Positions 26,182-31,400 of a DNA stretch of 32,071 nt are shown one piece after another (position 1 is the stretch's first letter; each line of letters begins with the position of its first letter). The notes beneath the pieces were generated by a model, which saw nothing but the letters and a program-made list of their open reading frames with translations, made no database searches and had not been told where the DNA came from. The DNA comes from Balneolaceae bacterium (GTDB taxonomy: Bacteria; Bacteroidota; Rhodothermia; Balneolales; Balneolaceae): NCBI GenBank assembly GCA_020832225.1, contig JAFIFA010000131.1, forward strand, positions 1 to 32,071. Direction: 5' to 3'. Both the position numbers and the translations under genes were made by a program.

Positions 26182-27732
26182 TCAGAGCGGCAGATTGTCG
26201 TGTTTCTTTTTAGGTACGGTATCGGCCTTGTTCTGTGAAACTTCCAGGGCCCGAATCAGCTTCTTCCGCGTTTCGGATGGCAGAATCACATCATCGATAA
26301 AGCCCCTGGCGGCTGCCTTGTAAGGGTGTGCAAACTCTTCGCTATACTGCGCCTCAAGCTCCTTCTGTTTTGCCTCCGGGTCGTCAGCTTTCGAAATCTC
26401 CCTTCTGAAGATGATTTCAACCGCACCCTTTGTGCCCATTACTGCGATCTCCGCAGTTGGCCAAGCCACGTTATAGTCGGCACGGATATGCTTGGAGTTC
26501 ATTACATCGTATGCGCCACCATACGCTTTACGTGTAATTACCGTCATTTTTGGAACAGTGGCCTCACAGAACGCATAGAGCAGCTTGGCTCCATGTTTGA
26601 TGATTCCGCCCCACTCCTGGTCCGTACCCGGTAAGAATCCCGGCACATCTTCAAACACCACCAGTGGAATGTTAAACGCGTCACAAAAACGAACAAACCG
26701 CGCTCCCTTGAGCGAGGCGTCAATATCCAAAACACCGGCAAGTGAGAGTGGCTGGTTGGCTACAATACCGACTGATCGTCCATCCAGACGGGCAAACCCC
26801 ACCACGATGTTGTCAGCATACTGTTCGTGCACTTCATAGAAAGAGTCTTTATCCACCACACCCCCAATTACATCCTTAATGTCGTATGGCTTGTTGGGGT
26901 TGAGCGGCACCAGATTGTCAAGGGCGTCTGCCTTGCTTCGATCCGGCTCTGCGGAAGCCTGCCGGGGCGTTTTCTCCTCACAGTTCTGCGGAATGTAGCT
27001 GATCAGTTCTCGAATATCCTTCAGACATGTGGCGTCATTCTCAGCAGCAAAGTGCGCTACACCCGATCGGGAACCATGAGCTGATGCACCGCCCAGCTCC
27101 TCAGAAGTAACCTCTTCATGCGTCACCGTTTTTACCACATTTGGCCCGGTCACAAACATGTAGCTGGTGTTCTTAACCATATAGACAAAGTCGGTGAGAG
27201 CGGGGCTGTATACCGCACCACCTGCGCACGGTCCCATTACCGCAGAGATTTGCGGCACAACACCGGAAGCCATCGAATTTCTCCAGAAAACCTCTGCGTA
27301 TCCGCCCAGGGAGCTTACACCCTCCTGGATTCGAGCACCACCCGAGTCGTTCAGGCCAATTACGGGAACACCATTTTTCATGGCGAGATCCATAATCTTA
27401 CAGATCTTTTCGGCATGAGTTTCTGAGAGAGAGCCGCCAAAGACCGTAAAATCCTGGCTAAAAACATAGACGGGGCGTCCCTCAATTTTTCCAAATCCGG
27501 TAACCACACCATCGCCCGGAACCAGCTTCTTATCCAGGCCGAAAGCGGTACTTCGGTGTGTTACGAATGTATCGATCTCTTCGAATGAATCTTTGTCTAA
27601 AAGCAGAGCGATCCGTTCGCGGGCTGTCAGCTTCCCTTTATCGTGCTGCTTTTTGATTCGAGCCGCGCCGCCCCCTTTTTTTGCTTCTTCCCTGAGCTTT
27701 AAGAGTTGTTCCGCCTTTTTGTTATGAGACAT
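26182..27732 (-). CDS. Acyl-CoA carboxylase carboxyltransferase (beta) subunit, propionyl-CoA type
   Basis: This is the 516-residue carboxyltransferase subunit that moves CO2 from biotin to an acyl-Co[14 protein letters not shown] near the start is typical. The two crotonase-like halves carry the oxyanion-hole glycines [17 protein letters not shown] and [32 protein letters not shown] and [15 protein letters not shown] are family hallmarks. It is closest in pattern to propionyl-CoA carboxylase beta chains; acetyl- or methylcrotonyl-CoA cannot be excluded. The biotin-carboxylase alpha subunit is not in the window. The ATG at 27732 is preferred to an in-frame start at 27795, which lies inside the preceding gene. 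The gap from that gene's stop is 10 bases, so the two are likely cotranscribed. Confidence 0.93.
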
Positions 27733-27742
27733 TCCTGAAGAT

Positions 27743-28237
27743 TTATTTCGATTTAAATTCGAGGAAAAAGGTATGAAGTCTGTCGGTAAAATCAACAGCT
27801 ACTTCATCAAATACATCCACGTCGCGCGGTTCAAAGATATCGGATGCGATAAAGGCGGATGCTTTTTTCCAGTTTTCAAACCGGCTGATCTCCTCCAATA
27901 CCTGCATATACTCCTTACTGTTGCCTGAAAAGATGTTTTTCACAAACCGTGCCTCTTCAGCCTCCATCCAGTCGATCAGACGCTCTGCCTGGCTGGTATC
28001 GTCTTTTACCTGCTCATCCTCAACATCAGTTGTGCCAAATAGCTCGGATAGAGTACGGGAGTCATCATCCTCTTCATCAGAGTCGTCATCCAGCTCAGAC
28101 CGCATCATGGATCCGTTTGGAACCTCATCATTTTCGTCATCTTTTACCTTGCTGAGATCTTCCCGGTCGAGAAAAGCGCGCCACATCGGCACCTCTTCAT
28201 CATCGGTTGTTTCATTGTAGAGCTCGATTGAGTCCAC
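27743..28237 (-). CDS. Acidic hypothetical protein; likely C-terminal half of the split gene
   Basis: I do not recognise a named family. The first 80 residues are strongly acidic (for example [16 protein letters not shown]) and contain [13 protein letters not shown]. Residues about 85-164 look like a compact helical domain: [19 protein letters not shown], then [11 protein letters not shown] and [18 protein letters not shown]. The only start near the 5' end is GTG at 28237, with no ribosome site. The frame is the same as that of the preceding gene and is separated from it only by TAA (28246-28244) plus two codons. This piece is therefore most simply the remainder of one ancestral protein of about 594 residues. 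If translated separately it would depend on weak GTG initiation or translational coupling. Confidence 0.55.
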
Positions 28238-28243
28238 TTCATC

Positions 28244-29527
28244 TTAATCTTCCGGCTTATCGGTTTCAGAAAGCACCGGTTCATCTTCATCTTTCGACAC
28301 GCCGCCAATACTCTGCCATTTTTTGAGCAGGTCGTTATCAAACTCCAGCCGGCCCTCTTCTTTTTCATTAGACTTCTCTTGCTGAAGCTTCATCTCCTTA
28401 TAGATCGATGGCTCCTCAGATTCATTCTCCTCTTCTTCATCTGAAATTTCATCTTCTGCACCCGCAAATCGGGAGAAGATCGGCCGCTCCTCATCCTCAT
28501 TGGAATCTTCTTCATCCCTGATCAAAGGTGAAGACTCTTCGGGAACATTGACAGTTTCCTCTTCTCTCGGCAGCCTATGCTGTTCCTCATCGTCATCATC
28601 AAATCTTTTTTTCTGAAATGCAGCAAGAATGGAATCTTCAGGCGACTCTTCAGGCTTCTTCTTCACCGGCTCATCGATCTTCTTCTCCTCTTTGCCGGGA
28701 GATGGCTCAACCTCTTTCGCTTCACTTTTAATTTCCGAGGTAATGCTTCTGTCCGGCTTCTTTTCAACTTTGGGTAAACTTTTCTGTTGTCGTTTCAACG
28801 TGCTCGCCGGTGCTGCAATAATTTCAATCATCTCTGTGCGGTCTACACTGCCGTCATGCCGATCGAAGCGTTCAGCCAGATCGATCTCACCTTTATCCTC
28901 AAAGTAGATTCTGAGAAGTTCGGTATCCACTGAGGGTCCGGCAAGCTGAAAGAGGGAGTCGAGTTCTTTAGCCCAGTCCAGAGAGTTATTCCCCTCCATC
29001 AGGCGCTCGTCTACCTTGGTGATGATCTCCCTGCACTCTTCAACCGAGAGGCTTTTCCTCTCTTTCTTCTCCATGTAGCGAACCAGAGCAGCAGCCAGTT
29101 TTCGACCGATAGTGATGTAGCGAACACGCTTCTTCAAAAGATCAACCGTCAACTCTTTATCGACACCAAAAAGGGTATCAGGAATTGAAACCCTCGGCTT
29201 AACGGCCAGTTCAAGGGTATCTGCCACCGCTGTTTCCAATAGCGAACGCGCATAGACAGCCGGCATACGAACCTCCGCCTTGATCGCCTCCAGAAAATTC
29301 TTCCAGGCAAAACGAACAGCCTGTTCATCCATCGATGCCCACTCCGTATCGGGTGGAGTCAGTGATTCACTAAGATTTTGATTCATCTCAATGATCACCC
29401 TGTCTGTTATAAATTCGGGTATTTCAAGAACCTGAAGATCTTCAGGTGTGTAAAACTCTCTGCCGGGGGGCAGCTTTTCGGCGAGCCGGTCTGTGATGTT
29501 GCGGATTATTCGCTCCATGGATGCCAT
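28244..29527 (-). CDS. Hypothetical protein with helical N-terminus and long acidic disordered C-terminus
   Basis: I do not recognise a family. Residues 1-235 appear folded and mostly helical (FITDRVIIEMNQNL, AWKNFLEAIKAEVRMP, KKRVRYITIGRKLAAALVRY). The segment near 160-215 (VEECREIITKVDERLM) suggests helical hairpins. Residues about 245-427 are Glu/Asp/Lys/Ser-rich and probably disordered. No signal peptide or membrane segment is present, so it should be cytoplasmic. The reading frame continues in the same phase past the TAA at 28246-28244 into the acidic gene downstream. The local codons GAA GAT TAA GAT GAA would be a simple Glu-Asp run if TAA were GAA. The annotated stop may therefore be a nonsense mutation. 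The neighbouring gene downstream is an acyl-CoA carboxylase subunit. Confidence 0.65.
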   Translation of the reverse strand: MASMERIIRNITDRLAEKLPPGREFYTPEDLQVLEIPEFITDRVIIEMNQNLSESLTPPDTEWASMDEQAVRFAWKNFLEAIKAEVRMPAVYARSLLETAVADTLELAVKPRVSIPDTLFGVDKELTVDLLKKRVRYITIGRKLAAALVRYMEKKERKSLSVEECREIITKVDERLMEGNNSLDWAKELDSLFQLAGPSVDTELLRIYFEDKGEIDLAERFDRHDGSVDRTEMIEIIAAPASTLKRQQKSLPKVEKKPDRSITSEIKSEAKEVEPSPGKEEKKIDEPVKKKPEESPEDSILAAFQKKRFDDDDEEQHRLPREEETVNVPEESSPLIRDEEDSNEDEERPIFSRFAGAEDEISDEEEENESEEPSIYKEMKLQQEKSNEKEEGRLEFDNDLLKKWQSIGGVSKDEDEPVLSETDKPED

Positions 29528-29658: not shown

Positions 29659-30291
29659 ATGATTATGATTCAATTATCGATTCAATCTCTTGGTAAACGG
29701 TACGGAAATCAGCCTGTATTTGATAATCTTTCCTACCGGTGCAGTTCCACCATTCTGGGAATAGCCGGTAAAAATGGGTCCGGCAAATCAACCTTCCTGA
29801 AGTGCTGCACGGGGTTGATCAAACCTTCATCCGGAACCGTAGTCTGGACCGAGAACGGAGAATCCAGAACACCATCTCAGATTAAACGCAGGGTCGGTTT
29901 TGCCGCTCCATACATTCAACTCTATGAGGAACTCTCCGTCAATGAGAACTTACAGTTTTTAAATGATCTTCAAAAGAGCCCTATGCCCATTTCCGGGCTG
30001 CCTGAACTCCTCGAGAGATTCCAGGCCGGACACCTTTCAGACAAGTTATACGGCAAGCTTTCAACCGGACAGAAACAGAGGGTGAAACTGGCAGCAGCCG
30101 TACTTAAGAAACCGTCTGTACTGGTACTTGATGAACCTGGCTCAAACCTGGACGATGCAGGTCGCGAAATGGTGAAAGCCCTCACCGAGCAGTGCCGCAA
30201 TGAAAATCAGATGGTGCTACTGGCATCAAACCTGTCGGGTGAACTTGACCTCTGCGATGAAATCTTAGACCTTAACAGCCAAAACGGATAG
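29659..30291 (+). CDS. ABC transporter ATP-binding protein (CcmA-like), non-canonical H-loop
   Basis: The 210-residue ATPase has Walker A GKNGSGKST (37-45), signature LSTGQKQRV (134-142) and Walker B VLVLDEPGSNLD (154-165). Its compact size and the form of the signature resemble CcmA, the ATPase of the heme exporter for cytochrome c assembly. By position, Asn191 in LLASNLSG replaces the H-loop His, and Pro occupies the usual Q-loop Gln place in GFAAPYIQLYEEL (80-92). No CcmB/C permease genes follow; the next gene is an aminopeptidase five bases downstream and is likely cotranscribed. It may serve a distant permease. CcmA assignment is tentative and no symbol is given. Confidence 0.8.
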   Translation: MIMIQLSIQSLGKRYGNQPVFDNLSYRCSSTILGIAGKNGSGKSTFLKCCTGLIKPSSGTVVWTENGESRTPSQIKRRVGFAAPYIQLYEELSVNENLQFLNDLQKSPMPISGLPELLERFQAGHLSDKLYGKLSTGQKQRVKLAAAVLKKPSVLVLDEPGSNLDDAGREMVKALTEQCRNENQMVLLASNLSGELDLCDEILDLNSQNG

Positions 30292-30296
30292 ACCCC

Positions 30297-31400
30297 ATGA
30301 TATCACCCGAAGACAGAAAACTGGCCGAACAACTCCTCAATCACAGCGTGCAACTTCAAAAGGGAGAAAATGTGATGCTCCAGCTGATCGGGCTAAACGG
30401 AATCGGGTTGATCCGCGCCCTGGTAGAGGCTGTTCGCAAGCGGGAAGCAAACCCCTTTATTAAGATTGAAGACCCTGAGATCAACCGGATTCTTCTTGAG
30501 AATGGCGACGAATCGTTCTGGAGCAGACAGGCTGATACCGATCAGCTGCCGCTTATGAAGCTGATGGATGCATTTATTGGAATCCGCGCCGCCGAGAATA
30601 TCTATGAAAACTCCGGGGTTTCGAAAGCACAAAACAAGGCCTATTCACAGAAATTTCTGAATCCCGTTCACTTTGAAGAGCGTGTAAACAATACAAAATG
30701 GGCTGTATTAAGGTATCCATCCGCCGCATTTGCCATGAACGCCAAAATGCCGACAGAGACCTTCCGGAAGTTCTACTACGACGCCTGCCTCTTCGACTAC
30801 AACAAGCTGGAAGAGGCGATGAAGCCTCTCGAAAAGCTGCTGCGAAAGACCGACATCATTGAACTGAAGGGTGAGGGAACCGACATCCGTTTCTCGGTGA
30901 AGGGTCAGAACTGGATACCCTGCTACGGTAGACGAAATATCCCCGATGGAGAACTCTTCTCCTCCCCGGTCATTGACTCGGTAAACGGTCATATCACCTA
31001 TGCGCCTTCGGTCTATCAGGGCAAGCCGTTTGAATTTGTGAAGCTCATTGTAAAAGATGGTGTGGTAACCGATTTTGATTCATCGAACAACTCTGCGCTT
31101 GAAGAGATCCTTGAAACCGATGATGGCGCCCGGCGTTTCGGTGAGTTCAGCTTTGGCCTGAACCCAATCATCAAGGAGCCGATGTATGACATTCTGTTTG
31201 ATGAGAAGATCTACGGATCGAACCACCTTACGCTGGGTAAAGACTATGAAATTGCCCCGAATGGCAATAGCAGCAATATCCACTGGGATTTGGTCTGTAT
31301 CGGCGCTGATGTCTATTTCGACGGAGAGCTTGTCAGAAAGGGTCGTGAGTTCGTTAAAGATGAGCTCAAGGGGCTCAATCCCCGGAATCTGAAAGACTAA
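30297..31400 (+). CDS. M29-family aminopeptidase
   Basis: This cytoplasmic metallopeptidase (AmpS/AmpT/PepS type) removes N-terminal residues from peptides using two metal ions. All six expected ligand or active-site residues can be placed: Glu219 in NIPDGELFSSP, Glu283 in RRFGEFSFG, His310 in GSNHLTLGKDY, Tyr317, His329 and Asp331 in NSSNIHWDLVC. The N-terminal half (1-180) has the usual nucleotide-fold-like region and EERVNNTKWAVLRYPS. At 367 residues it is slightly shorter than the roughly 400 of well-known members. The ATG is five bases after the ABC gene stop. A role in general peptide turnover is likely. Confidence 0.93.
   Translation: MISPEDRKLAEQLLNHSVQLQKGENVMLQLIGLNGIGLIRALVEAVRKREANPFIKIEDPEINRILLENGDESFWSRQADTDQLPLMKLMDAFIGIRAAENIYENSGVSKAQNKAYSQKFLNPVHFEERVNNTKWAVLRYPSAAFAMNAKMPTETFRKFYYDACLFDYNKLEEAMKPLEKLLRKTDIIELKGEGTDIRFSVKGQNWIPCYGRRNIPDGELFSSPVIDSVNGHITYAPSVYQGKPFEFVKLIVKDGVVTDFDSSNNSALEEILETDDGARRFGEFSFGLNPIIKEPMYDILFDEKIYGSNHLTLGKDYEIAPNGNSSNIHWDLVCIGADVYFDGELVRKGREFVKDELKGLNPRNLKD

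Follow-up and report, generated by a model that had tools for sequence, protein, structure and literature searches.

The 32,071-nucleotide stretch of DNA that was analysed (hereafter the window) belongs to the assembled genome of a salt-loving bacterium of the Balneolaceae. Its minus strand carries a single reading frame that runs from ATG 29527 to a TAA at 27743-27745 and is interrupted only once, by a further TAA at 28244-28246 (Table 1). The frame is listed as two open reading frames, one of 427 amino acids starting with ATG (28244-29527) and one of 164 amino acids starting with GTG (27743-28237), and the gap between the two consists of nothing but the TAA and two codons. Around the internal stop the minus-strand codons read GAA GAT TAA GAT GAA GTG, with the TAA at 28246-28244 and the GTG beginning six bases past it. 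The original prediction, that two reading frames in register are split by just this TAA, was thus exact in its coordinates and codons. It had also pointed to the lack of a nearby ATG and of a ribosome site for the second frame, and both observations are correct: no in-frame ATG occurs before the 20th codon of the downstream frame, where one lies within a conserved motif. The missing ribosome site, however, says little, as Shine-Dalgarno-like words are rare here and precede only 3 of the 19 other window genes checked, the remaining 16 being without one. In relatives the conserved start corresponds to ATG 29518, three codons inside the listed ATG 29527, its methionine being invariant in the alignment.

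Table 1. Features of the interrupted gene and of its neighbours in the window.
Feature	Position	Strand	Basis or remark
Acyl-CoA carboxylase carboxyltransferase (PccB/MmdA-like)	26182..27732	-	PF01039, 674.7 bits; synteny
Downstream piece of the interrupted gene, open up to the natural TAA	27743..28243	-	
C-terminal helical domain	27746..27988	-	Alignment; fold of relative L037
Conserved linker motif IELYNET...[14 protein letters not shown], directly 3' of the stop	28151..28228	-	Alignments of relatives
GTG listed as start of the downstream reading frame	28235..28237	-	Valine codon in 6 of 7 close relatives
In-frame TAA	28244..28246	-	Seen only in the window's genome among the genomes examined
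Upstream piece of the interrupted gene	28244..29527	-	427 amino acids from ATG 29527; conserved start ATG 29518
N-terminal helical domain, weakly EF-hand-like pairs	28808..29518	-	Alignment; AlphaFold2 pLDDT 92.8, pTM 0.86
ABC transporter ATPase, divergent neighbour	29659..30291	+	PF00005; synteny
M29 peptidase	30297..31400	+	PF02073; synteny

The gene order around the interrupted gene is conserved in relatives. At all 29 loci L032-L060 the gene is followed by the PccB-like gene; 28 of them also carry the divergent ABC ATPase gene and 26 the M29 peptidase gene. At L039 and L058 the sequence stops before the missing neighbours could appear, and L050 has no M29 gene within 3.6 kb.

We searched 40 genomes, the window's own and 39 relatives, for the upstream piece. 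It was matched in 37 of these relatives, every frame being open with zero internal stops; no match for it was obtained in G036 and G039. In this piece even the most similar relative reaches only 56% identity. In 28 of the 29 relative loci fetched from this search, one terminated open reading frame ends in the domain that occupies the window's downstream piece, and the remaining locus (L029) runs off its end, the same contig being complete as L047. When titled genomes were scanned with the C-domain, 29 loci were obtained, all 29 with an uninterrupted frame, that of L039 being cut within the N-domain by a contig edge. These loci share many genomes with the first locus set, and the two sets are therefore not independent. 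Two of the titled loci come, by title, from isolates, namely Rhodohalobacter halophilus JZ3C29 (L037) and R. sulfatireducens WB101 (L041), so that the single-gene form is founded on more than metagenome assemblies. Both isolates share the N-domain, the acidic linker, the C-domain and the order of genes with the window; there the gene is single and uninterrupted, whereas the window's copy has a TAA in the linker. Since both pieces lie in one frame in relatives, the same-frame pair in the window is more than chance.

Profiles of the N-domain (A1) and the C-domain (A2) were then run on 92 family genomes, the window's own included, with contig and open-frame length compared row by row. Both domains stand in one open frame on one contig in 82 of the 92 genomes (442-806 codons), which gives the single homologue spanning both halves that the original prediction had proposed to look for. 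The window's genome is alone among the 92 in having a stop between the domains, which occupy two abutting frames of 436 and 166 codons. In G307, G291 and G315 the domains lie on two contigs, each frame reaching a contig edge, and in G296 the N-domain is found alone at a contig edge; these four were rejected as split genes because contig edges cut the linker. Neither domain was matched in the other five family genomes (G293, G295, G297, G311 and G318). Two C-domain rows flagged with one TAA (G310 and G315) were likewise discarded, the profile match having overrun the natural end of the gene. Of the 66 good-quality family genomes (own included), 65 carry the gene. At the level of the phylum, 92 of 247 sampled genomes (own included) match the N-domain profile, with one match each and no internal stops, and 155 are without a match. 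As a separate observation, the contigs of the three fragmented assemblies G315, G307 and G291 (loci L106-L111) end inside the acidic linker of this gene, with visibly shared sequence at both ends in two of the three; perhaps the repetitive linker breaks assembly there.

The stop of the window sits in the acidic linker, which is predicted to be disordered, immediately ahead of the motif that close relatives conserve. An LSETDKPDD-like stretch lies just 5' of the stop place in the seven closest loci, with [26 protein letters not shown] just 3' of it, and a VPxW-like core persists in most rows of the wider relative set. The codons aligned with the stop in these seven loci encode Asp, Ser or Glu and none is a stop, the alignment within the acidic run being approximate; to that extent they agree with the earlier suggestion that an acidic codon was lost. 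Beyond the stop, the downstream piece keeps all four invariant C-domain residues, which is true by definition as the window's sequence is included in the alignment, and the near-invariant C-domain residues are present as well. With a fixed eight-sequence tree, the window's terminal branch accounts for 0.17 of the tree when the N-part is used and for 0.24 with the C-part; that of the intact L002 rises similarly, from 0.13 to 0.24, so such an increase also occurs in an unbroken copy. We accordingly rejected the idea that the downstream piece has decayed in any special way, there being no more decay than in intact L002. Synonymous codon choice is about equally gene-like in both pieces (0.066 downstream and 0.047 upstream, both weak signals). 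With the downstream piece in this state, there are three options: a recent stop, an erroneous one, or a downstream part that continues to be used.

Taken together, the single frame with its single stop, the fused and intact genes of relatives and the conserved gene order make it almost certain that one ancestral gene for a two-headed protein is interrupted, in this assembly, by one nonsense codon in its linker. The original prediction had favoured such a split gene, and the spanning homologues, together with the lack of any stop between the domains in the relatives examined, bear it out. Translation would end at the TAA; the truncated product would retain the N-domain with about 187 residues of linker and would lack the conserved motif and the C-domain, probably with loss of function. 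The nonsense codon would be either a recent strain mutation or a base that entered the assembled consensus by error or from a minor variant, and we take the odds of mutation versus consensus error to be about equal. Two findings sit less comfortably with this explanation: the presence of the gene in nearly every good-quality family genome makes a true null somewhat surprising, and the absence of decay in the downstream piece beyond that of an intact relative also fits continued use. The same two findings, a gene that almost the whole family carries, elsewhere unbroken, and no special downstream decay, favour the version of this explanation, not exclusive of it, in which the TAA is a consensus error or the base of a minor strain in a fragmented assembly (231 contigs), a version to which we give slightly less than an even chance. 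At 56% likeness, the closest relative provides no second genome of the species against which the TAA base can be checked. Against an erroneous base stands the general soundness of the assembly. A sample of 313,509 bases, made up of the window and 20 arbitrarily chosen stretches (about 9% of the assembly), was filtered for same-frame pairs having at least 100 codons and a coding signal on each side of the stop. Four pairs passed, the window's included; in the other three, two of which presumably correspond to atpG and an mlaD-like gene (judged by eye only), an ATG comes first among the start codons, 1, 3 or 16 codons past the stop, and in the window's pair the GTG does. Thus no other pair without a prompt ATG was seen in this sample, and an assembly generally full of in-frame stops was rejected. 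The neighbouring genes of the window (M29 peptidase, ABC ATPase, PccB-like, CBS, RarA and FMN reductase) can also be aligned with those of relatives along almost their entire length.

The other reading offered by the original prediction, a real arrangement of two proteins in which translation stops at the TAA and restarts at the GTG, with the motif and the C-domain forming a separate protein, is very improbable. A GTG six bases past the stop would allow a restart, the intact downstream frame with its conserved domain fits a separate protein, and the absent ribosome site does not speak against a restart in a genome region where most genes checked lack one. No relative examined, however, has two genes with a conserved stop and a second start, and the place of the GTG holds a valine codon (GTA, GTT or GTG) in six of the seven close relatives, the valine of L005 being one residue away, so that the GTG needs no start function; as the normal state, two genes are contradicted by the fused genes of relatives. 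We consider it just as improbable that the stop has become fixed in the species and that the two heads are made as two polypeptides by termination-reinitiation at the GTG, which, if true, would mean that the heads need not be joined. Least likely of all, with next to no probability in our estimate, is readthrough, in which the TAA would be decoded and the full protein still made. The conservation of the downstream piece fits it, but a TAA-reading anticodon occurs in none of the 29 tRNA genes found in this incomplete genome, on which ground a suppressor tRNA was rejected, and TAA terminates 6 of the 22 genes counted in the window, which makes general reassignment unlikely. The interrupted gene is thus an ordinary broken copy or a sequencing error rather than a novel arrangement of two genes. 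Annotation should merge the two hypothetical genes into one interrupted gene, and the split itself matters little.

The more lasting lead is the uncharacterised, single-copy, two-domain protein family to which the gene belongs, spread over the Balneolaceae and, by its N-domain, over part of the phylum. For the intact 574-residue protein of L037, AlphaFold2 predicts the N-domain (about residues 1-237) and the C-domain (about 491-570) with confidence, and the linker between them (about 244-487) with low confidence. The architecture is, by prediction, an N-terminal helical domain, a long acidic linker with a conserved aromatic motif, and a small helical C-domain. The C-terminal domain is predicted with a pLDDT of about 90 in the L037 model, in keeping with the earlier remark that the downstream piece ends in what looks like a folded helical domain, and the window's own N-domain, folded alone with AlphaFold2, is predicted with the high confidence given in Table 1. 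The predicted secondary structure of the N-domain can be read as three pairs of helix-strand-helix units. Most of its leading structure matches in the PDB are, as we take it from their titles, EF-hand proteins, the best match having a Z of 6.4 (rmsd 2.1, 61 residues aligned) and the best Foldseek E being 0.029, both weak and below the caution level of the tool. As in calmodulin, calbindin D9k and other EF-hand proteins, the modelled N-domain has helix-loop-helix pairs with short strands in the loops; on the side of differences, a PROSITE-like pattern finds the canonical calcium loop in none of the aligned sequences (0 of 28 and 0 of 29 in two overlapping sets), all structure scores are weak and there is no convincing PDB sequence match. 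The predicted N-domain may thus be called weakly EF-hand-like. OtDUB chains are also among its structure matches, FtsY chains appear in the full-length search, and the C-domain of the full-length model gives a Z of 5.2 to a Nab2 chain and of 4.4 to a viral matrix protein.

Comparison with Pfam, NCBIfam and the PDB gave no convincing sequence match for the family. The downstream piece returned weak matches to MobC_2 (E 0.17), Bacteroid_MobA (0.027) and a radical-SAM model (0.038). Twenty-six full-length members gave Erf4 (0.0029, in five members), MobC_2 (0.028), RhlB (0.03), RPT (0.031) and S_layer_C (0.061) in Pfam, none of them convincing, and six NCBIfam models matched at 0.025 or weaker. 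One PDB sequence-profile hit for each domain (E 0.062 for the N-domain and 0.72 for the C-domain) was taken as chance, and a limited portion of the Rhodohalobacter genome literature contained nothing on the gene. Our working idea, drawn from the predicted architecture only, is that the protein may be a tether with two binding heads, and a tether role is accordingly put forward as a candidate function for this family, uncharacterised in the database comparisons.

Fourteen further loci extend the neighbourhood beyond close relatives (two from the family, five from the class and seven from the phylum), with Pfam scans of the neighbours at all but L065. The PccB-like gene is adjacent in five of them, namely both family loci and three of the class. 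In four phylum loci (L068-L071) the gene that follows encodes an Obg GTPase and in two others (L066 and L067) an AAA_23 ATPase, that of L067 being SbcC/Rad50-like by its further domains. The next gene encodes a LysM/transglycosylase protein in L061 and is without a Pfam match in L072. In the distant genomes of L066-L071, then, an Obg GTPase or AAA_23 ATPase gene replaces the PccB-like gene after the gene of this family.
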